A program made the translations under genes and the position numbers. Shown here in pieces: positions 20,327-60,666 of a stretch of 64,000 nucleotides of DNA; within the stretch, counting starts at the first letter, position 1, and each line of letters begins with the position of its first letter. This DNA is from Actinoplanes oblitus (lineage in GTDB: Bacteria; Actinomycetota; Actinomycetes; Mycobacteriales; Micromonosporaceae), in the NCBI RefSeq assembly GCF_030252345.1, contig NZ_CP126980.1, positions 7,021,501 through 7,085,500 on the forward strand, read 5' to 3'. The notes under the pieces were generated by a model. That model had not been told where the DNA came from, searched no databases, and saw only the letters and a list, made by a program, of their open reading frames with translations.

Positions 20327-20422
20327 TGGCGGAGGCGGACGGGAATCGAACCCGCCTGACCCGGATACCGGGTCACGTCGGTTTTGAAGACCGCGAGGAG
20401 CACCAGCAACCTGAACGCCTCC
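20327..20422 (-). tRNA. selC: Selenocysteine tRNA (anticodon TCA)
   Basis: On the minus strand the gene starts GGAGGCGTTCAGG at 20422 and ends CGCCTCCGCCA at 20327, with the CCA encoded. Anticodon arm CGGTCTTCAAAACCG carries TCA, reading UGA. The T-arm is GGCGGGTTCGATTCCCGTC, and a long variable arm (GTGACCCGGTATCCGGGTCA) forms a hairpin. Total 96 nt with CCA. The long extra arm and UCA anticodon are diagnostic of tRNA-Sec. It is positioned between selD (divergent) and selA (same strand). Confidence 0.97.
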
Positions 20423-50608: not shown

Positions 50609-51484
50609 ATGACGGGGCGGGGGTTGCGGCGGTGGGTGATGACGGGGCGGGGGTTGCGGCGGTGGGCGATCCACGCGTTCGCGGCGTTCGGGGTGGTGGC
50701 GCTGCTGCTGCAGTCCTATCAGGCGGTGTGGGACAGGCCGCTGTGGCCCGGGCACGCGGGGACGGTAGCGGCCGCTGTCGCGATCGGCTCCCTGGGGTAC
50801 GGCCTGGTCCGCACCCGCCCCGCGACGGCAGTGGTCCGGGAGTTGAAGCGACCCGGGTGCCGGATCGAGGTGGTGCCCGGTGACCTGTTCGAGCAGGACG
50901 ACGCGCACCTCGTGATCGGGTTCACCGACACCTTCGACACCGACGTCACCGACGACCGGGTGGTGCAGGCCGGCAGCGTGCAGGGACAGTTCCTGACCCG
51001 GGTCTACGGCGGTGACCGGGAACGCCTCGACGCCGACCTGGACAAGCTGCTGGCCGAGGAGCCGGTGGTGACCGAGTTGACGCGCGCCACCAAGCCGTAC
51101 GGAAAACTGCGCCGTCATCTCGTCGGGACCGTTCTGGTGCTCGGGGACCCGCGCCGGCATTTCTTCGCTGTCGCCTACAGCCGGATGGGGCCGAACCTGG
51201 TCGCCCAGTCGTCGGCGGACCAGCTGTGGCAGAGCCTGAGCCGGCTGTGGGCCGCCGTGCACGAGCACGGGCAGCGGCGCCCCCTGGCGATGCCGGTGGC
51301 CGGCGCCACGCTGGCCCGGGTGGACGCGCTCGATCGGGAGGCGCTGCTGCGGCTGATCCTGCTGTCCTTCGTGGCCGCCTCCCGCGATCACCTGATCACC
51401 ACCCGGCTGCGCGTGGTGCTGCGCCCGGACGAGTTCGCCGAGGTGAACCGCGCCGAGCTGCAGGCGTTCCTGGACGCGATCTGA
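50609..51484 (+). CDS. Transmembrane protein with ThsA_Macro (DUF6430) domain
   Basis: 291 residues. Two hydrophobic helices (~22-42 and ~50-68) precede a macro-type domain (~78-291): CRIEVVPGDLFEQDDAHLVI, GFTDTFDTDVTDDRVV, GSVQGQFLTRVYGGD and FFAVAYSRM, which is the DUF6430/ThsA_Macro pattern. Such TM-macro proteins are effectors of Thoeris-type immunity that bind an ADP-ribose-derived signal made by TIR enzymes and damage the membrane (family knowledge). No TIR gene is adjacent; the nearest are 6-10 kb downstream. A 30-bp duplication supplies two identical starts (ATG 50609 and 50639), each with a GTG before it. Confidence 0.75.
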   Translation: MTGRGLRRWVMTGRGLRRWAIHAFAAFGVVALLLQSYQAVWDRPLWPGHAGTVAAAVAIGSLGYGLVRTRPATAVVRELKRPGCRIEVVPGDLFEQDDAHLVIGFTDTFDTDVTDDRVVQAGSVQGQFLTRVYGGDRERLDADLDKLLAEEPVVTELTRATKPYGKLRRHLVGTVLVLGDPRRHFFAVAYSRMGPNLVAQSSADQLWQSLSRLWAAVHEHGQRRPLAMPVAGATLARVDALDREALLRLILLSFVAASRDHLITTRLRVVLRPDEFAEVNRAELQAFLDAI

Positions 51485-51555
51485 GCGCGAGCGGGCGTTG
51501 CCCGGTGGGACCGGGCGTGATTGAGTGGACACGCCACGACATCCTGGGGGCTTTC

Positions 51556-52254
51556 GTGACCGCAGCCGCCTCCCGCCGGCCGAACCCCTGGGCCCCCGGC
51601 ACCTTCCTCGGCAGCCTTCCCGCCGAGGTCGCCCTGGCCCTGGTCGCCGGCAGTGTGAAGCGTCAGTTCGCCGCCGGCCGCGCGCTGCTGCGCGAGGGCA
51701 CCCGGGACACCCACGTCTTCCTGCTGATCCGCGGCTTCGTCAAGGCGACCACGGCTGTCGACGGGGTGGAGACGCTGCTCGGCATCCGGATTCCCGGCGA
51801 GGTGGTCGGTGAGATCGGGGCGCTGACCGGCGAGCCGCGCACCGCGACGGTGACCGCGTGCGGGCCGGTCACCGCCGGGCAGGTCAGCCGCGCCGAGTTC
51901 GAGGCGTTCCTGCGGCGGCGGCAGGACGCGTCGGCGCTGGTGGTCACGGCGATGGGCCGGCAGCTGCGGTGGGCGAACCGGCGGCGGGTGGACTTCGCCG
52001 CGTTCCCCGCGCACATCCGGCTGGCCCGGTTGCTCGCCGAGATCGCCGACGTGTGCGGGCGGCCGCGGCCGGACGGCAGCGTCGAGATCGCGGTGCCGCT
52101 GAGCCAGCCGGACCTGGCCTCGATGATCGCCATCGCCCAGGCGACGGTGCAGAAGGCGCTGCACGAGCTGCGCGACCGCGGGCTGATCGCCACCGGTTAC
52201 CGCCGGCTGATCATCACCGATCTGGAGAAACTGCGGGTCGCCGCCGAACTGTGA
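51556..52254 (+). CDS. Crp/Fnr-family transcriptional regulator
   Basis: 232 residues. Cyclic-nucleotide-binding beta-roll: FAAGRALLREGTRDTHVFLLIRGFVKATTAVDG...IRIPGEVVGEIGALTGEPRTATVTA. A C-terminal winged helix follows, ending LSQPDLASMIAIAQATVQKALHELRDRGLIATGYRRLII. The roll has GEIG-type residues but not the complete cAMP-phosphate Arg/Ser set of E. coli Crp, so the ligand is uncertain. GTG 51556 has GGGGG 5 nt upstream; GTG 51517 would add 13 residues. It follows the TM-macro gene by 71 bp on the same strand. Confidence 0.87.
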   Translation: MTAAASRRPNPWAPGTFLGSLPAEVALALVAGSVKRQFAAGRALLREGTRDTHVFLLIRGFVKATTAVDGVETLLGIRIPGEVVGEIGALTGEPRTATVTACGPVTAGQVSRAEFEAFLRRRQDASALVVTAMGRQLRWANRRRVDFAAFPAHIRLARLLAEIADVCGRPRPDGSVEIAVPLSQPDLASMIAIAQATVQKALHELRDRGLIATGYRRLIITDLEKLRVAAEL

Positions 52255-52536: not shown

Positions 52537-55326
52537 GTGAGCGGCCACATCGTCGGCCGCGCCGGTGAGCTCGCGGTACTGCGCCAGGCACTCGACGACA
52601 CCAAGGACGGCCGCGGTGGCTGCCACGTCGTCGTCGGGCCGCCCGGGATCGGCAAGTCCCGGCTGCTGCTGGCGGCCGGTGACCACGCCGACGAGCGGGA
52701 CATCGCGGTCGCCGCCCGCGAGGCGTTCCGGCACGATCTCGCCGCGCCGCTGGTCACCCTGGCCGGCGCGCTGCGCGCGTGCAGCCCGCCGACCGGCGAC
52801 TTCGCCTGGTTGTCCGGCGTGGACGACCAGCCGGCCGGGAACTACGCCAAGATCCTCCGGTTGCGTGACTCGCTGGAGCGGTTCGCCGCCGCCCAGCCGC
52901 TGCTCATCGTGATCGACGACGCGCACTGGATGGACGAGCTGAGCGCGCTCGCCGTCCGCGAGCTGGTGCCGGCGCTCGCCTCGTTCCCGATCCGCTGGCT
53001 GCTGGCCAGCCGCACCCAGCCGGGCGACACCCCGGGCGGGCAGACGCTGAGCTGGCTGTCGCAGCGCGGCACCGCCATCCACCTGGACGTGCTCGACGAC
53101 GAGGCGACCGAGCGGCTGTGCACCGAGCGGATCGGCGCCCGGGTAGACAACACGGTGCTGGCCCTGGTCGCCGGCTGCGGCGGATACCCGCTGCGGATCG
53201 AGCAGCTGCTGGACGCGCTGGTGGCCACCAAGCAGATCATGATCGCCGACGGGATCGCCACGGTGGTCGGCGAGGACCTGCCGTCCAGCTTCGTCGCCAC
53301 GGTCCGGGAGATGGTCGGCAGCCTCTCCCCCGACGCGCAGCGGCTGCTGCGCTCGGCGTCGGTGCTGGACCGGCCGTTCGACATCGAGAGCGCGGCGCGG
53401 CTGATGGGCAGCACCGACCCGGCCGAGCTGTTCGGGCTGATTGACGAGGTGACCACGTCCGGCCTGCTGGTCGAGGACCAGGACGGGCTGGTGTTCCGGC
53501 ACGCGCTGGTGCACCAGGCGGTGCAGAACAGCCTCGGGAACTCCCAGGCACGGCTGCTGCACGGCAAGGCGGCGGTGCTGGCCCGGGAGCACGGCCGCCC
53601 CACCGCGGAGATCGCGGGTCATCTGTTGCGCAGTGGGCGGGTCGGCGCCGGGGCGGCTGTCGACATGCTGCGCGGCACGGCCGCCGGGGTCGCGGCAACG
53701 GCCCCGGCGACTGCCGCCGACCTGATGTGCCAGGCGTTGCAGGCGATCGGCGAGCACGATCCGGCGCGGCCGGCGATCGTCGCGGACACGGTCGGCCTGC
53801 TCGCCGCGGCCGGCCGGGTCACCAGGGCACACGAGCTGGGCACCGAGGCGCTGCGCACCGAGCTGGACCCGCCCACCCGGGCGACCGTCCTGCTCGGGCT
53901 GGCCGAGGCGTTCCAGCACGCCGGGCGGAACGCCGAGGCCGCCCGGTACGCCGAGGACGGCCTGAACCAGTCGAAGATCGCCGAGGAGGTCCGGGCCCGG
54001 CTGCTCGCGATCCGCGCGCACACCGCGTTCGCCCTGGACGACCTGGCCGTGGCGGAGGCCTCCGGCGCCGAGGCGAGCCGGATCGGCCGGGAGCACGAGC
54101 CCGGCGCCGCAGTCCTCGGCCTGACCGCGCGCAGCCTGGTGGCCGGGGCCGAGGGCCGCCTCGACGACGCGCTGCGGCACGCGAGCGAGGCCACCGAGCT
54201 GGCCGACGCGGCAGGCGGCCCGGCGCCGCACCGGCATCCGCGGCTCTGGCTGGCGAACGCGCTGACCGCGCTGGACCGGTTCGACGAGGCGGAGCAGGCG
54301 CTGCGCCACGGCCGGCCGGAATCCGACGCGCTGGGCGCCGCGTGGGCGCAGCCGCTCTGGCACTACTACTGGGCGGCGTTGCTGACCGCCCGGGGCCGGC
54401 TCGACGACGCGGTGGCCGAGGCCGACGCCGGGGTGACCACGGCGGAGCAGCTGACCGCGTACCGGCTGGCCGTGCCGCTGCTCGGCACCCTGATCCGGCT
54501 GGCGGTGCTGCGCGGCGACCTGCCGCAGGCGCGCGGCCTGCTGGACCGGATGCGACAGCTGCGGGCCACCGGGATCACCGCGGCGCCGGAGGACGCGGCC
54601 TGGGCCGAGGCGACACTGCTGTGCGCCGAGGGCGCCGGGCCGGAGGCGTTCGCGCTGATGCGCGGCTTCTACGACACCGCGATCGACCGGCCCACCCTGC
54701 TGGTGCGGGATCCCGGCGCCGTCGCCGGCCTGGTGCGGCTGGCCGCGGCGGCCGGGGAGCGGGAACGCGCGGAGGCGGTGGTGGCAAGCGCGGCGCGGCT
54801 GGCGCGGCGCAACCCGCTGTCGCACGCCGCGGCCGGGGCGGCCGAGCACGCTACGGGGGTGCTCGGCCGCGACCCGCGCCGGCTGCGGGCCGCGATGACC
54901 GAGTTCCGGCTCGGCCGGCGACCGCTGGCCCTCGCCGCTGCCTGCGAGGACGCCGCCGACCTGAGCCGCGCGGCGGGCGACCGGGCCGGCGCGCGGGCCC
55001 GCTACGACGAAGCGCTGGCGCTGGTCACCTCGGCCGGCGCGCACGGCGTACGGCGGCGGCTGGAGTCCGGCCTGGGCGTCTGGCTCGGGGTCAGCGCGCC
55101 GGAGCCGGCCCCGGGCCGGCACGGGACCGGCCTGCCCGGGCTCTCCCCCGCGGAACGCCCGGTGGCGCTGCTGGTGGCCCGGGGCATGACCAACATCGTG
55201 GTGGCCCGGCAGCTGAACCTCTCCCCGCACACGGTGGACAGTCACCTCCGGAAGATCTTCATGAAGCTGGACATCCGCAGCCGCGTCGAGCTGGCCGCCC
55301 TGGTCGCCCGGGAGTGCCCGGACTAG
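52537..55326 (+). CDS. Large LuxR-family ATP-binding regulator
   Basis: 929 residues. An AAA/STAND ATPase has Walker A GPPGIGKS (~33-40) and Walker B LLIVIDDAHWMDE, a long TPR-like helical middle (~300-850), and a C-terminal LuxR helix-turn-helix LSPAERPVALLVARGMTNIVVARQLNLSPHTVDSHLRKIFMKL (~870-912). This subgroup (LAL) often regulates secondary metabolism or sugar use. GTG 52537 is chosen at the start of the conserved HIVGRAGEL segment, with GGGGA upstream. The FAD monooxygenase 125 bp downstream may be its target (inference). Confidence 0.9.
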   Translation: MSGHIVGRAGELAVLRQALDDTKDGRGGCHVVVGPPGIGKSRLLLAAGDHADERDIAVAAREAFRHDLAAPLVTLAGALRACSPPTGDFAWLSGVDDQPAGNYAKILRLRDSLERFAAAQPLLIVIDDAHWMDELSALAVRELVPALASFPIRWLLASRTQPGDTPGGQTLSWLSQRGTAIHLDVLDDEATERLCTERIGARVDNTVLALVAGCGGYPLRIEQLLDALVATKQIMIADGIATVVGEDLPSSFVATVREMVGSLSPDAQRLLRSASVLDRPFDIESAARLMGSTDPAELFGLIDEVTTSGLLVEDQDGLVFRHALVHQAVQNSLGNSQARLLHGKAAVLAREHGRPTAEIAGHLLRSGRVGAGAAVDMLRGTAAGVAATAPATAADLMCQALQAIGEHDPARPAIVADTVGLLAAAGRVTRAHELGTEALRTELDPPTRATVLLGLAEAFQHAGRNAEAARYAEDGLNQSKIAEEVRARLLAIRAHTAFALDDLAVAEASGAEASRIGREHEPGAAVLGLTARSLVAGAEGRLDDALRHASEATELADAAGGPAPHRHPRLWLANALTALDRFDEAEQALRHGRPESDALGAAWAQPLWHYYWAALLTARGRLDDAVAEADAGVTTAEQLTAYRLAVPLLGTLIRLAVLRGDLPQARGLLDRMRQLRATGITAAPEDAAWAEATLLCAEGAGPEAFALMRGFYDTAIDRPTLLVRDPGAVAGLVRLAAAAGERERAEAVVASAARLARRNPLSHAAAGAAEHATGVLGRDPRRLRAAMTEFRLGRRPLALAAACEDAADLSRAAGDRAGARARYDEALALVTSAGAHGVRRRLESGLGVWLGVSAPEPAPGRHGTGLPGLSPAERPVALLVARGMTNIVVARQLNLSPHTVDSHLRKIFMKLDIRSRVELAALVARECPD

Positions 55327-55451
55327 CACCGGTTCGCCGGACGCGGCCGCCTCGGCGCCGGGCGCTAATCCCGAGGACGCGTGATGTGCCGCGCCGGCCG
55401 GCCGGCCAAGGATGGCGGTAGGTGTCGCCGACGTGCCGGGAAGGACCGGAA

Positions 55452-56891
55452 TTGATCAGTACGACCGTATCCCGCACCCCGGTGCTCGTGGTCGGCGCCG
55501 GCCCGACCGGCGCCGTGCTCGCCCTGGAACTGGCCCGGCACGGCGTGCCCAGCCTGGTCGTCGAACGCGCCTCCCGCCCACCACACCACCCCGAGCTCAA
55601 CCTGGTCGGCGGCCACACCCTGGACCTGTTGCGCCGGCTCGGCGTGGCGGAGCGCATCCTCGCCGCCGGCCTGGACCCGGACGGTCACGACACCGCGGTG
55701 TGGAGCCGGTCGATCGGCCGCCGGCCGGTGGCCACCGCCCCGCTCCCGCCACCCGACCGGCCGGGAGCGGACGGGCCGGGGGTGCTGGTCACCGGCACCG
55801 ACCTGGTCGTCCGGCTGCGCGAGGCGGCCCGCGCCCACCCGCTCGTCGACCTGCGCGAGGGCTGGATCTTCACCGATCTGCGGCCGGTCACCGGCGGCGC
55901 GGTGGCGACACTGCTCGACGGGCACACCGGCATCCGGCACACCGTCGCGGCCGATCACCTGGCCGGTTGCGACGGCGCGCGGAGCACCGTCCGCAGATGC
56001 CTGAGCGTGCCGATGGACGAGACGCTGACCAGCGGGCACTACTACACGATCCAGTTCCGCAGCGAGCACCTGGCGCGCCGGTTCCCCCGGCCGGCCACGC
56101 TGATCGCCGACGGGATCGCGCTGACCCGTTGCTCCGGGCCCGGCATGTGGCTCGGCCACCTGCCGCTGGACGACCCGGACGCGGAGACCGCCGACCCGAT
56201 CGCGCTGCTGCACAGCAAGCTCCCGGACGCCCTGGCCGCCTCGCAGATCCTCGAGGTGACCCAGTGGCCGGACCCGCTCGGGGTGGCCCGCACCTACCGG
56301 CGCGGCGCCGCCTACCTGGCCGGGCAGGCGGCGCACACCCTGCACCCGCCGAGCATCACCGTCGACACCTGCCTCGGCGACGCCGCCGACCTGGGTTGGA
56401 AGATCGCCGCCACGGTGCACCGCTGGGCCGGTCCGGGCCTGCTGGACAGCTACGAGCGGGACCGCCGGCCGCACGCCGTCCGCGACCGCGGGCTGCTCTC
56501 CCGGGAGCTGGCGACGCGGCGGCGGTTCGGCCGGCTGGCGGCGGCCGGCGCGTCCCGGGAACGCCTCGCCGGGGTACTGCGCCGGGACGAGCTGCGGCAC
56601 GCCGGGGCCGGTACGCCGCCCCGGCTGCCGACCGACTGGCTCGGCCCGCAGTTCACCCTGGTGGACGCGACCGAGTCGGGCAGCGGCCGGGCTCTCGTGG
56701 CGACGGCGCGGACCCGCGGCATCCCGATGACCCACCTCGCGGTGGCCGACGCGCCACCGCGCAACCGCTGGCCGGACCGGCTGGTGCTGATCCGGCCGGA
56801 CCAACTCGTGGCGTGGCAGTCGGCCGGCGAGACGGCCGACTGGGACGGCGTCCTCGATCGGGTGACCGGACGCCCGCCCAGGATCACGTGA
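55452..56891 (+). CDS. FAD-dependent (class A) aromatic monooxygenase
   Basis: 479 residues. FAD-binding VLVVGAGPTGAVLALELARHG near the N terminus, the DG motif HLAGCDGARSTVRR (~170), and the GD motif TVDTCLGDAADLGWKIAATV (~310) mark a PheA/TetX-like flavoprotein hydroxylase. The C-terminal ~100 residues fit the thioredoxin-like tail of this family (DWLGPQFTLVDA). It would hydroxylate an aromatic or polyketide substrate with NAD(P)H and O2. TTG 55452 follows GGGAAGG and starts just before the FAD motif; GTG 55422 is an alternative. Its position after a LAL regulator suggests controlled expression. Confidence 0.88.
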   Translation: MISTTVSRTPVLVVGAGPTGAVLALELARHGVPSLVVERASRPPHHPELNLVGGHTLDLLRRLGVAERILAAGLDPDGHDTAVWSRSIGRRPVATAPLPPPDRPGADGPGVLVTGTDLVVRLREAARAHPLVDLREGWIFTDLRPVTGGAVATLLDGHTGIRHTVAADHLAGCDGARSTVRRCLSVPMDETLTSGHYYTIQFRSEHLARRFPRPATLIADGIALTRCSGPGMWLGHLPLDDPDAETADPIALLHSKLPDALAASQILEVTQWPDPLGVARTYRRGAAYLAGQAAHTLHPPSITVDTCLGDAADLGWKIAATVHRWAGPGLLDSYERDRRPHAVRDRGLLSRELATRRRFGRLAAAGASRERLAGVLRRDELRHAGAGTPPRLPTDWLGPQFTLVDATESGSGRALVATARTRGIPMTHLAVADAPPRNRWPDRLVLIRPDQLVAWQSAGETADWDGVLDRVTGRPPRIT

Positions 56892-56967
56892 ACACGTGAT
56901 GTGTCGCCCGCCCCGCTCCGGACACGCTCAACTGGCGAATGCGCCGACCCGAAAAGGACCGAGAACG

Positions 56968-57567
56968 ATGACGAGGGCAATCGCGGATCTGGACAACACC
57001 GTCGTGGGCGGCTGGGTACGCCGGCTGGCCGGCAACGCCTCGCCGCGGCGGAACCACTGGAACACCCGGACCACCTACTACCGGGCCGCCGTGGCGGTCC
57101 TGAACGCCGCCCCGCGCACGGCGGTCACCTGGAAGTCGGTCGTCGCGGCGGCCCAGCCGTACGGGTGCCGCAGCACGTTCTACGAGGTGGCCGGCGCGCA
57201 CGCCCGGCACCGGATGATCGACGACCTGATCGGTGACGGGCGCGCCGACTCGTTGCAGATCGCGCTGCGCTACCTGCGGGTGGACGCCGTGGAGCAGCTG
57301 ATCGACGAGGCCAAGGTGTGGTCGTTCTGGCTGCACCGGCAGCAGCTGACCCGCCGGCTGACCGCCCAGATGACCACCGGCGAGCTGGAGAACGAGCTGA
57401 TCGCCGAGGTGACCGCGTGGGCCCGGCGGCGGCCGGCGCTGGCCCGGGCGAACGGTGCCACGCCGCCGGCCTGCGCCGTGGAGGACCTGACCGTGCTGCA
57501 CGGGCGCCGGCTGTCCGGCACCCAGGCCGCCAACCAGCTCACCGAGGTGGTGCGGGACGCGCTGTGA
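56968..57567 (+). CDS. Conserved protein of unknown function
   Basis: 199 residues from ATG 56968. Almost entirely helical, rich in Arg/Ala/Trp, with a segment TWKSVVAAAQPYGCRSTFYEVAG (~50-72) reminiscent of a TetR-like helix-turn-helix. The rest (LRVDAVEQLIDEAKVWSFW, MTTGELENELIAEVTAW) is not recognised. It may be a DNA-binding protein; no ligand domain is identifiable. It converges on the CATRA gene with a hairpin between. Confidence 0.6.
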   Translation: MTRAIADLDNTVVGGWVRRLAGNASPRRNHWNTRTTYYRAAVAVLNAAPRTAVTWKSVVAAAQPYGCRSTFYEVAGAHARHRMIDDLIGDGRADSLQIALRYLRVDAVEQLIDEAKVWSFWLHRQQLTRRLTAQMTTGELENELIAEVTAWARRRPALARANGATPPACAVEDLTVLHGRRLSGTQAANQLTEVVRDAL

Positions 57568-57630: not shown

Positions 57631-59718
57631 TCAGAGGAGGCCGGCGAAGCGATCGGTGTCGAGCCAGTCGGTGCCGGAGGTGTCGATCGGGAAACCGGCG
57701 ATCCGCAACCGCTGGGCGATCTGCTGCACGAAGATCTCGCGGTCCCGCCGGGTGTCGCCGGCCAGCCGCACCACCTCGCGCCCGTCCAGCTCGGTGACCC
57801 GGCCGGGCCCGCCGATGCGCACCACCATGGTCCGTTCCGGGTGCGACGCGAGCGCCTGACCGGCCCGGATGAGCGTGTCGGGATAGGTCCCGTCGAGGTC
57901 GTCCGGGGTGAGCAGGACCAGTGACGCCGGGCCGATCGCGAAGCCGGCCCGCAGCACCTCCTCGCGGTACGGCATCGGCTTGCCGGTCCGGGCCAGGACC
58001 TCCTCCCAGTCCAGGGGGTGCAGGTTCAGCGAGCGCAGCAGCCCGAAGACGGCCGCGCGGGCCCGCTGCTCGCGGCCGTGGATCACGAAGATCTCCCGGC
58101 GGGCCGGCTCCGGGCCGGCCGGTGCGGCCGGGGTCACCGACCCGCCGGTCCACAGCCAGGCGGTCCGGCGGAACGTCTTGACCCGCACCTCGACGCTGCG
58201 GAACTGGTTCGCGTCCAGCCCCTCGTAGCCCTCACCCACCACGTCCTCGTGGGTGCGGTCGGTGATCAGCGCGACCACGTCGGCGTCCGGATGCTCCACG
58301 ACCGCCTGGCGCAGCGCCGGGCTGTCCAGCAGCCGGCCGATACCGATGATGGTGTTGTCGCTGAACCCGATCGCGGCCGCCGCGAACGGCCCGGAGCCGA
58401 CCGCGAGACGCAGCCGGATCCGGTCGGCCGGGTGCGCGGCATTGTCGGCGACCAGGCAGGCCCGCCAGCCGTGCAGCAGTTTCGGCAGCGCGAGGTGGGT
58501 CGGCACGCCGGCCGGCAGCACCACCATCATGCCGTCGCCGGCGTCCTGCCGGTCGGTCTCGTGCGGTTTCAGGCCGAGGCCCTCGAGCACCCGCTCGACC
58601 ATGCCCGCGACGCGGCGCTGCACCTCGTTGCGGCTCGGCGCGGTCCGGGAGCTGTAGTCGACGACGTCGATGCCGAAGCCGACCCGGTGCTCGACGCCGG
58701 AGCGCGCCGCCGCGGTGGCCGGCGGCCGCTGCTCCGGGATCAGTTTCGCCGTCCGTTCGGCCTGCTCCCGGGTGGCTTCCAGATATTCCACCTCGTCGCC
58801 GATCCGGTCGGCCAGCCAGGTCGCGAGCTCGGCGTCGGCGGGCAGCTGCGGAGCGACCGCCTTGGCCAGGTTGGCCCGGGCGATCTCCACGCTGCGCGCC
58901 ATCCGGCGCAGGCCGCCGAGCGCCGCGACCAGTTCGGCCTCGTCGGCGGTGTACTCGGTGAGGTCGGCCGGGCCGCTCGGCTCCACCCGGTCGAGCACCC
59001 GGGAACGCAGCGCCCGCAGCCCACCTGCGTCCAGTACCCGGGCGTGGTAGCGCAGCTTGGTGGCGTGCAGCAGGTAGCGGCCCAGGGGCGGCAGCGCGGA
59101 GTCGCCGGCGCTCCAGGCGAACTCGCTGAGGGCGCGTTCCTGGCTCGGCCGGCCGACGATCACCAGCCGCCGGTCGGGGCCGCCGCCGGTCGGGGTGACC
59201 TCCCAGGCGGCGAAGCCGTTCAGCACGCAGCGGTTGGTCCACCAGCCGGCGCCGTCGTCGGACCGGGCGGGCACCGCGTCGCGGACCCCGGCGCCGGCCG
59301 GGTCGGCGGCCCGGGCCAGGTAGACGATCGCGCCGCCGAGCAGCCCGCCCGGATCGGTGCCGCGCAGCCGCTCCCACCAGCGGGCGTGGTCGTGCCAGCC
59401 CGGCTGCAACGCGTAGCCCGGCCGCTGGGAGATGCCGAAGGAGACATTGAGGACGTCGTGCTCCCGGCGGACTATCGCCTGGCAGCGCAGCGCCGGATCC
59501 TGCAGCCCGGCGAGCGCGCCGTCCGGCTCCTGCGCCGGGTCGGCGGGCAGTCCGGCGGCCAGGTCCGCGGCGAGGATCGGCTCGGTCATCCCCAGCTGGG
59601 TACGGCATCGCTCCCAGAACCCGTCGAGCCAGGCGAGCGCCGTGGCGGCGTCGGGCCCGTCCAGCGGCGCGTACAGGTGGGCGACGAACTCCTGGTCAAC
59701 GAGCTCGCTGGTCGTCAT
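57631..59718 (-). CDS. CATRA-type conflict protein fused to a class III nucleotide cyclase and a TIR-like domain
   Basis: 695 residues. The N-terminal ~330 residues match the CATRA (caspase- and TPR-associated) conflict-system protein pattern: DQEFVAHLYAPLDGP, FWERCRTQLGMTEPI, QAIVRREHDVLNVS and HARWWERLRG. Residues ~345-523 are a class III nucleotide-cyclase-like domain with metal-binding Asp351 (GIDVVDYS) and Asp395 (DAGDGMMVVLP). Residues ~541-695 are a TIR-like (Cap12/PF10137-type) domain (REIFVIHGREQ, LHPLDWEEVLARTGK, VLLTPDD), but the position of the catalytic Glu reads LIRAG, so Arg618 replaces it. No membrane segments. ATG 59718 has AAGGGGGAG upstream and overlaps the CASP gene by 23 bp. 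Probable immune sensor; function inferred. Confidence 0.8.
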   Translation of the reverse strand: MTTSELVDQEFVAHLYAPLDGPDAATALAWLDGFWERCRTQLGMTEPILAADLAAGLPADPAQEPDGALAGLQDPALRCQAIVRREHDVLNVSFGISQRPGYALQPGWHDHARWWERLRGTDPGGLLGGAIVYLARAADPAGAGVRDAVPARSDDGAGWWTNRCVLNGFAAWEVTPTGGGPDRRLVIVGRPSQERALSEFAWSAGDSALPPLGRYLLHATKLRYHARVLDAGGLRALRSRVLDRVEPSGPADLTEYTADEAELVAALGGLRRMARSVEIARANLAKAVAPQLPADAELATWLADRIGDEVEYLEATREQAERTAKLIPEQRPPATAAARSGVEHRVGFGIDVVDYSSRTAPSRNEVQRRVAGMVERVLEGLGLKPHETDRQDAGDGMMVVLPAGVPTHLALPKLLHGWRACLVADNAAHPADRIRLRLAVGSGPFAAAAIGFSDNTIIGIGRLLDSPALRQAVVEHPDADVVALITDRTHEDVVGEGYEGLDANQFRSVEVRVKTFRRTAWLWTGGSVTPAAPAGPEPARREIFVIHGREQRARAAVFGLLRSLNLHPLDWEEVLARTGKPMPYREEVLRAGFAIGPASLVLLTPDDLDGTYPDTLIRAGQALASHPERTMVVRIGGPGRVTELDGREVVRLAGDTRRDREIFVQQIAQRLRIAGFPIDTSGTDWLDTDRFAGLL

Positions 59719-60034
59719 GCTCCCCCTTCGGCAGCGGTTTGCCGGTGAGCCGGTGCACCAGCTCGTTGCGCCGTTCGAGGACCCGCGCCGGAATGCCGGC
59801 GGCCGGGGCGCTGCCGATCGGGATGAGCCGGAACGACTCCCGCAGGCTCTCCAGCCCGATCGTGGCGTCCTCCAGCTCCACCAGGTCCCCGGCGTCGAGC
59901 GCCGCCTCGATGCGGTCCAGCACCCGGGAGACCGTCGCCCAGCGCTCCGGCGCGGTGGTGAGCAGGACCAGATCGTCCAGCGCGTCGACGGCAGCGGTCA
60001 CGGACGCGGCGTCCCAGTGCTCGGGGAGGTCCAT
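59696..60034 (-). CDS. CATRA-associated small protein (CASP)
   Basis: 112 residues from ATG 60034 (GTG 60043 possible). The helical pattern ALDDLVLLTTAPERWATVSRV, LDRIEAALDAGDLVELEDAT, RLIPIGS and LERRNELVHRLTG matches the small partner encoded with CATRA proteins. Its last 23 bp overlap the start of the CATRA gene, so synthesis of the two proteins is coupled. Expected to bind the CATRA region and regulate it, by analogy with two-gene conflict systems; this is inference. Confidence 0.75.
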   Translation of the reverse strand: MDLPEHWDAASVTAAVDALDDLVLLTTAPERWATVSRVLDRIEAALDAGDLVELEDATIGLESLRESFRLIPIGSAPAAGIPARVLERRNELVHRLTGKPLPKGEHDDQRAR

Positions 60035-60120
60035 GGTGGGCACTGTAGCCAGCGCCGGGGCGTCGCGCCTCCACCGAGCAAACGACCCGTTCCGAGATCC
60101 GGCTGTTTAGCATCGGTCAC

Positions 60121-60666
60121 ATGCCGGACCCCCGCGAAGTCTTCGTCATTCACGGCCGCGACGAGCAGGCCCGTCTCGCCCTGTGGCGGTTCCTGCAGGC
60201 CATCGACCTGCATCCGCTGGACTGGGAGGAGGTCGTCGAGCGCACCGGCCGCGGCGTGCCGTACATGACGGAGGTGCTGGCCAAGGCGTTCGAGGAGAAC
60301 CAGGCGGCGATCGTGCTGTGCACCCCGGACGACGGCGCGATCCTGCACGAGGAGCTGCGCGGGCGGCGGGAGCAGCCGTACGAGACCGAGCTGACCGGCC
60401 AGGTCCGGCCGAACGTGCTGCTCGAGATGGGCATGGCGCTGGCCCTGCAGCCGGCCCGCACGGTCATCGTGGAGATCGGCGACCTGCGACCGGTCTCGGA
60501 CATCGCCGGGATCAACGTGATCCGCTTCAACGGCACCGCGGAGAGCCTCAACAAGATCGCCGGCCGGCTGGAGCTGGCCGGCTGCGCGGTCAACCGGAAG
60601 GGCACCGACTGGCTGGACACCACACCGTTCGAAAACCTGAAGGCGTACCAGCGCACCTTCCGCTGA
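60121..60666 (+). CDS. Stand-alone TIR-like nucleotide-binding protein (Cap12/PF10137 type)
   Basis: 181 residues, essentially a single TIR-like domain: REVFVIHGRDEQARLALWRFL, LHPLDWEEVVERTGRG, AIVLCTPDD and PNVLLEMGMALALQPARTVIVEIGD. Glu102 in LLEMG corresponds to the catalytic Glu of TIR NADases in this family. About 45% of positions in the first 65 residues equal those of the CATRA fusion's TIR domain, so they are paralogues. It is divergent from the CASP/CATRA pair with 86 bp between starts and would share a control region. The domain could cleave NAD+ or make a cyclic ADP-ribose-type signal. A TAGCAT at 60108-60113 may give a near-leaderless transcript. Confidence 0.85.
   Translation: MPDPREVFVIHGRDEQARLALWRFLQAIDLHPLDWEEVVERTGRGVPYMTEVLAKAFEENQAAIVLCTPDDGAILHEELRGRREQPYETELTGQVRPNVLLEMGMALALQPARTVIVEIGDLRPVSDIAGINVIRFNGTAESLNKIAGRLELAGCAVNRKGTDWLDTTPFENLKAYQRTFR

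Follow-up and report, generated by a model that had tools for sequence, protein, structure and literature searches.

A catalytically dead TIR domain on a CATRA-cyclase protein of Actinoplanes oblitus and its possible link to a Thoeris-like arm

How might a protein that joins a CATRA region, a nucleotide cyclase and a TIR domain in one chain pass on a signal, when a second TIR gene stands directly beside it? The question is raised by a locus of Actinoplanes oblitus lying within the window analysed here, a stretch of 64,000 nucleotides from contig NZ_CP126980.1 (positions 7,021,501 to 7,085,500; coordinates below are those of the window). A minus-strand gene at 57631..59718 encodes a 695-amino-acid (aa) protein composed of CATRA-N, CATRA-C, a class III cyclase (about 338-527) and a TIR domain (538-694), assigned from Pfam and a predicted structure; a second minus-strand gene at 59696..60034 encodes CASP, the 112-aa CATRA-associated small protein (PF20271); and a plus-strand gene at 60121..60666, divergent from CASP, encodes a separate 181-aa TIR protein of the CAP12 type (PF10137). 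A preliminary description of the locus had proposed that infection sensed by CATRA and CASP switches on the cyclase, whose product, or the fused TIR itself, then activates the stand-alone TIR. Here, we describe the evidence, drawn from sequence comparison, that the fused TIR is a catalytically dead pseudo-TIR and that the separate TIR is predicted to be an active enzyme, before then developing a tentative proposal in which a CATRA-type conflict system is wired to a Thoeris-like arm through the dead TIR.

The domain families of the locus are readily recognised. Both CATRA-N (1.6e-46) and CATRA-C (1.4e-22) are matched above the Pfam cut-off in the 695-aa protein, which also matches the NCBIfam family NF038357 (2.9e-91), while CASP matches CATASP at 7.6e-20 (scored on a 115-aa form), and many homologues carry the NCBI label 'CATRA conflict system CASPASE/TPR repeat-associated protein'. 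The CATRA/CASP pair of the preliminary description thus stands, as does its placing of cyclase and TIR in one chain with CATRA, with D351 and D395 present; what it overlooked was the state of the fused TIR, a ThsA_Macro gene with a Crp-like neighbour and the CHAT genes of relatives. The same order of domains, sought in other genomes, recurs in at least 14 of 300 genomes of the family (CATRA-Cyc-TIR below), and a CASP open reading frame (ORF) adjoins it in all 14 such loci, the window included; here the CASP and CATRA ORFs overlap by 23 bp. Linkers at 330-340 and 528-537 of the 695-aa protein have low confidence in the predicted structure, and no trustworthy PDB sequence match was returned for this protein, the 181-aa TIR or the profiles of either. 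A promoter and terminator scan of 59950-60200 found none. Elsewhere CASP is fused to CATRA-Cyc, in L052:6653-8707 (CASP being C-terminal), P0057, P0059 and P0060, and such natural fusions could help in modelling the contact between CATRA and CASP.

The two TIR domains of the locus differ at the active site. In an alignment of 73 sequences, all 24 separate TIRs and 12 of the 13 CATRA-TIRs have the catalytic glutamate of the RPNV..E motif, against 4 of the 36 CATRA-Cyc-TIRs. This residue is E102 of the 181-aa TIR, where the motif RPNVLLE(102)MG is intact, and a separate alignment finds it invariant across 27 intact TIRs; the fused domain has R618 at that position, preceded by a loop that lacks some 20 residues. 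The replacements among the dead TIRs are diverse (R, Q, S, T, P or a deletion), and Q94, R96, N98, R123, N132 and C155 (181-aa TIR numbering), conserved at 0.97-1.00 in 36 intact sequences, are lost in most of 32 dead ones. The sole CATRA-TIR without the glutamate, at L052, directly adjoins a separate intact TIR and a CATRA-Cyc gene. By these residues the fused TIR is a catalytically dead pseudo-TIR and the separate TIR a predicted active enzyme; because of the missing glutamate and loop we reject the fused TIR as an active effector, a role that the preliminary description had allowed it.

Loss of the active site has not meant loss of the domain. The core positions G548, L566, P568, P583, T630, G636, L671, G675 and W685 are kept at 0.97-1.00 in the 32 dead fused TIRs, and the region is modelled at high confidence in the predicted structure. 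The tree unites all 36 fused TIRs in a single clade (89/91), which groups at 98/90 with 14 intact TIRs, namely eight separate TIRs and six CATRA-TIRs. Compared with the closest relatives, G172 and G167, the dead TIR has dN/dS values of 0.40 and 0.41, because of which we regard the domain, on this measure, as still under constraint; the values are 0.75 and 0.71 for CATRA, 0.68 and 0.62 for the cyclase, 0.28 and 0.30 for the separate TIR and 0.19 and 0.22 for a macro protein discussed below. Among these parts CATRA therefore evolves fastest, in keeping with a possible role as sensor. MyD88 and MAL are TIR adaptors, in which a non-catalytic TIR recruits another TIR, and TIR assemblies of the MyD88/MAL type appear among the matches of the separate TIR.

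The cyclase, by comparison of its residues, is probably active in its catalytic core, since D351, D395, R462 and Q391 are each conserved in 66/66 aligned homologues. We take D351 and D395 to be metal-binding and R462 to be the catalytic arginine of class III cyclases. Class III adenylyl cyclases carry a transition-state asparagine before the catalytic arginine; the aligned position here is I458, which is isoleucine in 60/66 homologues and asparagine in 0/66. The predicted fold is that of a class III cyclase; PDB cyclases were found by the cyclase-family profile only, the whole-protein profile missing them, and the cyclase domain fills the matches to the whole predicted model. The same genome encodes a 267-aa cyclase, 31% identical over this domain, that adjoins a PycTM effector gene (L003, G000:C1:9598818-9602351; PF18967 4.7e-13, PADLOC PycTM 8e-26), so that the cyclase family is also represented there in a Pycsar-like setting. 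As an observation in its own right, this cyclase domain is fused to ThsA_Macro in L080:10355-11716, L110:10533-12068 and L111:12241-13770, near TIR or CATRA-TIR genes and, in L080, in a locus that also holds CASP, so that cyclic-nucleotide and ADP-ribose (ADPR)-type signalling seem to be joined in one chain.

A partner for the separate TIR is suggested by a plus-strand gene at 50639..51484, whose product has an N-terminal region (about 1-75) followed by ThsA_Macro (76-262; PF20016, 1.1e-56), and matches both the PADLOC ThsA model (3.5e-76 over 8-280) and the solved ThsA macro domain 8v6q of the PDB (E 2.9e-12). Directly 3' of it, at 51517..52254 on the same strand, lies a gene for a Crp-like regulator with cyclic nucleoside monophosphate (cNMP)-binding and helix-turn-helix domains (PF00027, 1.7e-18; PF13545, 3.2e-16), and the pair is retained in G172 and G167. 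In the survey of 300 genomes, the statistics of which treat related genomes as independent, the TIR clade was found in 39 genomes and ThsA_Macro in 34, with both in 29 (Fisher 8e-27); leaving out three genomes with only a dead fused TIR gives 36, 34 and 29. The two genes lie no more than 20 kb apart in 25 of the 29 shared genomes. Up to three candidates per genome were scored in the CATRA-Cyc-TIR search and up to 11 in the TIR search, and absences there count for little.

Co-occurrence extends to the fused protein. Eight separate TIRs are close to that of the window, at 69% identity or more, a cut set post hoc at a gap below which the next stands at 63%, a choice that also tells against too firm a reading; all eight come from genomes with ThsA_Macro and seven of them from CATRA-Cyc-TIR genomes (Fisher 7e-10), the non-random association with a separate TIR that the preliminary description had expected. 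The genome of the eighth (G155) has CATRA-Cyc and then CATRA with a dead TIR, and six CATRA-TIRs also fall at 70-76% identity. Among the 14 CATRA-Cyc-TIR genomes listed, in 12 of which the fused TIR is dead, seven have both a close separate TIR and the macro gene, six have neither and one has the macro gene only (p 0.0047). G206, G230 and G246 have the macro gene beside CATRA-Cyc-TIR and the TIR far off or on another contig; that all of these genes are kept though unlinked argues against mere linkage. Six loci (L076, L080, L097-L100) bring together CASP, an intact TIR fused to CATRA, and macro genes. Taken on its own, the claim that the separate TIR and the macro protein work together seems to us likely. 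In G206, G230 and G246 the separate TIR (L071, L072, L073) adjoins a 323-aa gene, far from the CATRA locus, which in L071 is an aldo/keto reductase; a CHAT gene is nearby in L071 and L073.

The proposal that joins these parts is as follows. CATRA and CASP would together form a sensor of infection, and sensing would switch on the cyclase, an enzyme of a class that works as a dimer. From the kinship of the two TIRs, the retained fold of the dead one and their co-occurrence, we infer that the pseudo-TIR acts as an adaptor that docks the separate TIR to the sensor by TIR-TIR contact, and docking could either activate or restrain the separate TIR. The separate TIR would make an NAD+-derived signal bound by the ThsA-type macro protein, which, by analogy with the characterised Thoeris systems whose ThsA is a transmembrane (TM) macro protein and whose TIR makes a base-exchanged NAD+ product that the macro domain binds, would kill or arrest the infected cell. 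The cyclic nucleotide may be a second, parallel output, with the Crp-like gene beside the macro gene as its candidate reader. Given that CATRA is fused to an intact TIR in other lineages, a dead TIR with a separate one looks like the same control exercised in trans. For the chain as a whole, from sensor to macro protein, our confidence stops a little short of even. Possible rather than probable is the bolder claim of a bacterial TIR adaptor, a counterpart of MyD88, in which a dead TIR on a CATRA sensor with a cyclase nucleates or gates an enzymatic TIR and so couples cyclic-mononucleotide and NAD+-derived signals to a macro effector. The likeness to MyD88 and MAL lies in the proposed recruitment of one TIR by another that is not catalytic; the differences are that the present case is bacterial, fused to a cyclase and paired with a predicted enzyme.

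Several observations weigh against the adaptor proposal. The fused TIRs of L048 and L050 retain the glutamate and full loop, and those of P0016 and P0047 retain the glutamate without the loop. Of the genomes whose fused TIR is dead, G044, G218 and G211 yielded no intact separate TIR at the threshold used, the one in G192 is distant (49% identity), and G149 has an intact CATRA-TIR instead. The N-terminal region of the window macro protein is putatively transmembrane, by homology only, being covered by the near full-length ThsA model match; a Kyte-Doolittle (KD) hydropathy scan with a threshold of 1.6 predicted no TM helix there, although it did so in several homologues, including that of L096 at 90.7% identity. 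Furthermore, the TIR and macro genes of the window are 8.7 kb apart with regulatory and metabolic genes between them, and the macro-Crp-LuxR-FAD-199aa block is common to G172 and G167 at 85-93% identity, so their nearness may be inherited. A rival reading has two independent modules, a CATRA-cyclase system next to a Thoeris-like pair of TIR and macro genes, with no functional coupling between them. TIR-macro pairs do occur without CATRA in the stretch examined (L101, L104-L109), as does CATRA-Cyc without a nearby TIR or macro gene (L051, L053-L055). We nonetheless think that arrangement unlikely, as all eight close separate TIRs come from genomes with CATRA-Cyc and a dead TIR, three of them unlinked, and the six loci named above have CATRA joined to an intact TIR close to a macro gene.

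Other explanations keep the parts connected and differ in what the fused TIR does. The preliminary description was closest to a Pycsar-like model, in which the cyclic nucleotide would directly activate the stand-alone TIR, the fused TIR serving as a second effector. The locus does resemble Pycsar in its class III cyclase and TIR, and the conserved active site and the cyclase-PycTM pair of the same genome would fit; yet the fused TIR lacks its catalytic glutamate, and the 181-aa TIR is a bare domain, unlike PycTIR, which according to PMC11224242 has an N-terminal cyclic-nucleotide-binding domain, so that activation of the Pycsar type is doubtful. The cyclase also differs in being fused to CATRA and a dead TIR, and the PADLOC PycC model matches neither the cyclase part nor the whole 695-aa protein. 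That source places recognition of the CTP base at F100/R142/Q144 in EaPycC and of the UTP base at Y50/D94/R97 in BcPycC; these determinants do not map by position onto the window cyclase (Q391/A393/G394), where Q391 is found in 66/66. We consider this model improbable. A third model, decidedly improbable, has the dead TIR capping the active TIR at rest and letting it go upon sensing; in relatives, CHAT might bring this about by cleaving linker 528-537. The linker between cyclase and pseudo-TIR has a pLDDT below 50 in the predicted structure, and a CHAT gene is present in the stretch examined at 8/14 CATRA-Cyc-TIR loci, those of G172 and G167 included. The window, however, has no CHAT or caspase gene, which also counts against our own proposal, and the A. 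oblitus genome has no match to the CHAT protein of G167, only two weaker CHAT matches more than 1 Mb from the locus and three C14 matches at least 0.36 Mb away. That the fused TIR is no more than a functionless remnant in decay we hold to be very improbable: its active site is lost with diverse replacements and it evolves faster than the separate TIR, but its dN/dS is lower than in the CATRA and cyclase regions of this protein, and its fold core is conserved and confidently modelled.

The adaptor proposal places the locus between several known systems. It shares CATRA-N, CATRA-C, CASP and overlapping genes with the CATRA conflict systems, and differs from them in having no CHAT or caspase in the window, in a CATRA that carries a cyclase and pseudo-TIR, and in its separate TIR and ThsA-type macro gene. 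In the EACC1 and VMAP conflict systems, as PMC7159879 has it, a cNMP cyclase can replace the caspase, and a cNMP cyclase thus stands at the signalling position there as here; the core proteins are other ones, and many relatives of the window locus have both cyclase and CHAT. With Thoeris of the TM-macro ThsA type, as covered in PMC11204291, the locus has in common a ThsA-type macro gene, a TIR with the catalytic glutamate and family-wide co-occurrence. Unlike in Thoeris, the window TIR is of the CAP12/PF10137 type, the PADLOC ThsB models giving no match for it, CATRA with a pseudo-TIR seems to act as the sensor, and the TIR and macro genes are not in one operon, whereas a TIR lies within 300 bp of the macro gene in, for instance, G249, G057 and G114.

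Between the Crp-like gene and the 695-aa gene lies a block of a LuxR-type AAA regulator, an FAD monooxygenase and a 199-aa gene (52537-57564), which recurs, whole or in part, next to the CATRA loci of L039-L043 and L057 and hints at a shared site of insertion. A vWA-domain gene (L041:10201-10848) adjoins CASP; L042 and L043 carry homologues of it at the corresponding position, and L038, L039 and L057 have them close to the locus. A membrane protein of 252-254 aa with no clear family directly follows CHAT in three CATRA-Cyc-TIR loci (L038:2998-3759, L039:5967-6728, L044:7019-7774). Viral contigs contained no relative. Partial matches occur in 17 plasmid records, none covering 80%; three plasmid neighbourhoods around TIR or cyclase matches held no gene named ThsA or macro, and in one of them a Crp-type gene lies two genes away from the cyclase. 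An annotated CATRA locus on a Streptomyces plasmid reads CASP-CATRA-CHAT. Elsewhere in the window, ARAGORN places a tRNA-Sec (anticodon TCA) at 20327-20422.

Each domain family described here is already known, and it is their wiring that looks new: the literature consulted, from which the founding CATRA paper (Burroughs & Aravind 2020) and supplementary files fell outside the scope, yielded no description of CATRA-cyclase-TIR, of the pseudo-TIR or of a link between CATRA and Thoeris. If true, the proposal would join three systems that have been treated separately, namely CATRA conflict systems, Thoeris and cyclase signalling. It would also offer an example from bacteria, open to test, in which a pseudo-TIR adaptor is matched with an enzymatic TIR. 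A further suggestion is that CATRA, a domain on which we found no experiment in the same literature, regulates TIR enzymes. As some genomes carry CATRA with an intact TIR and others a dead TIR with a separate intact one, the adaptor idea is directly testable.

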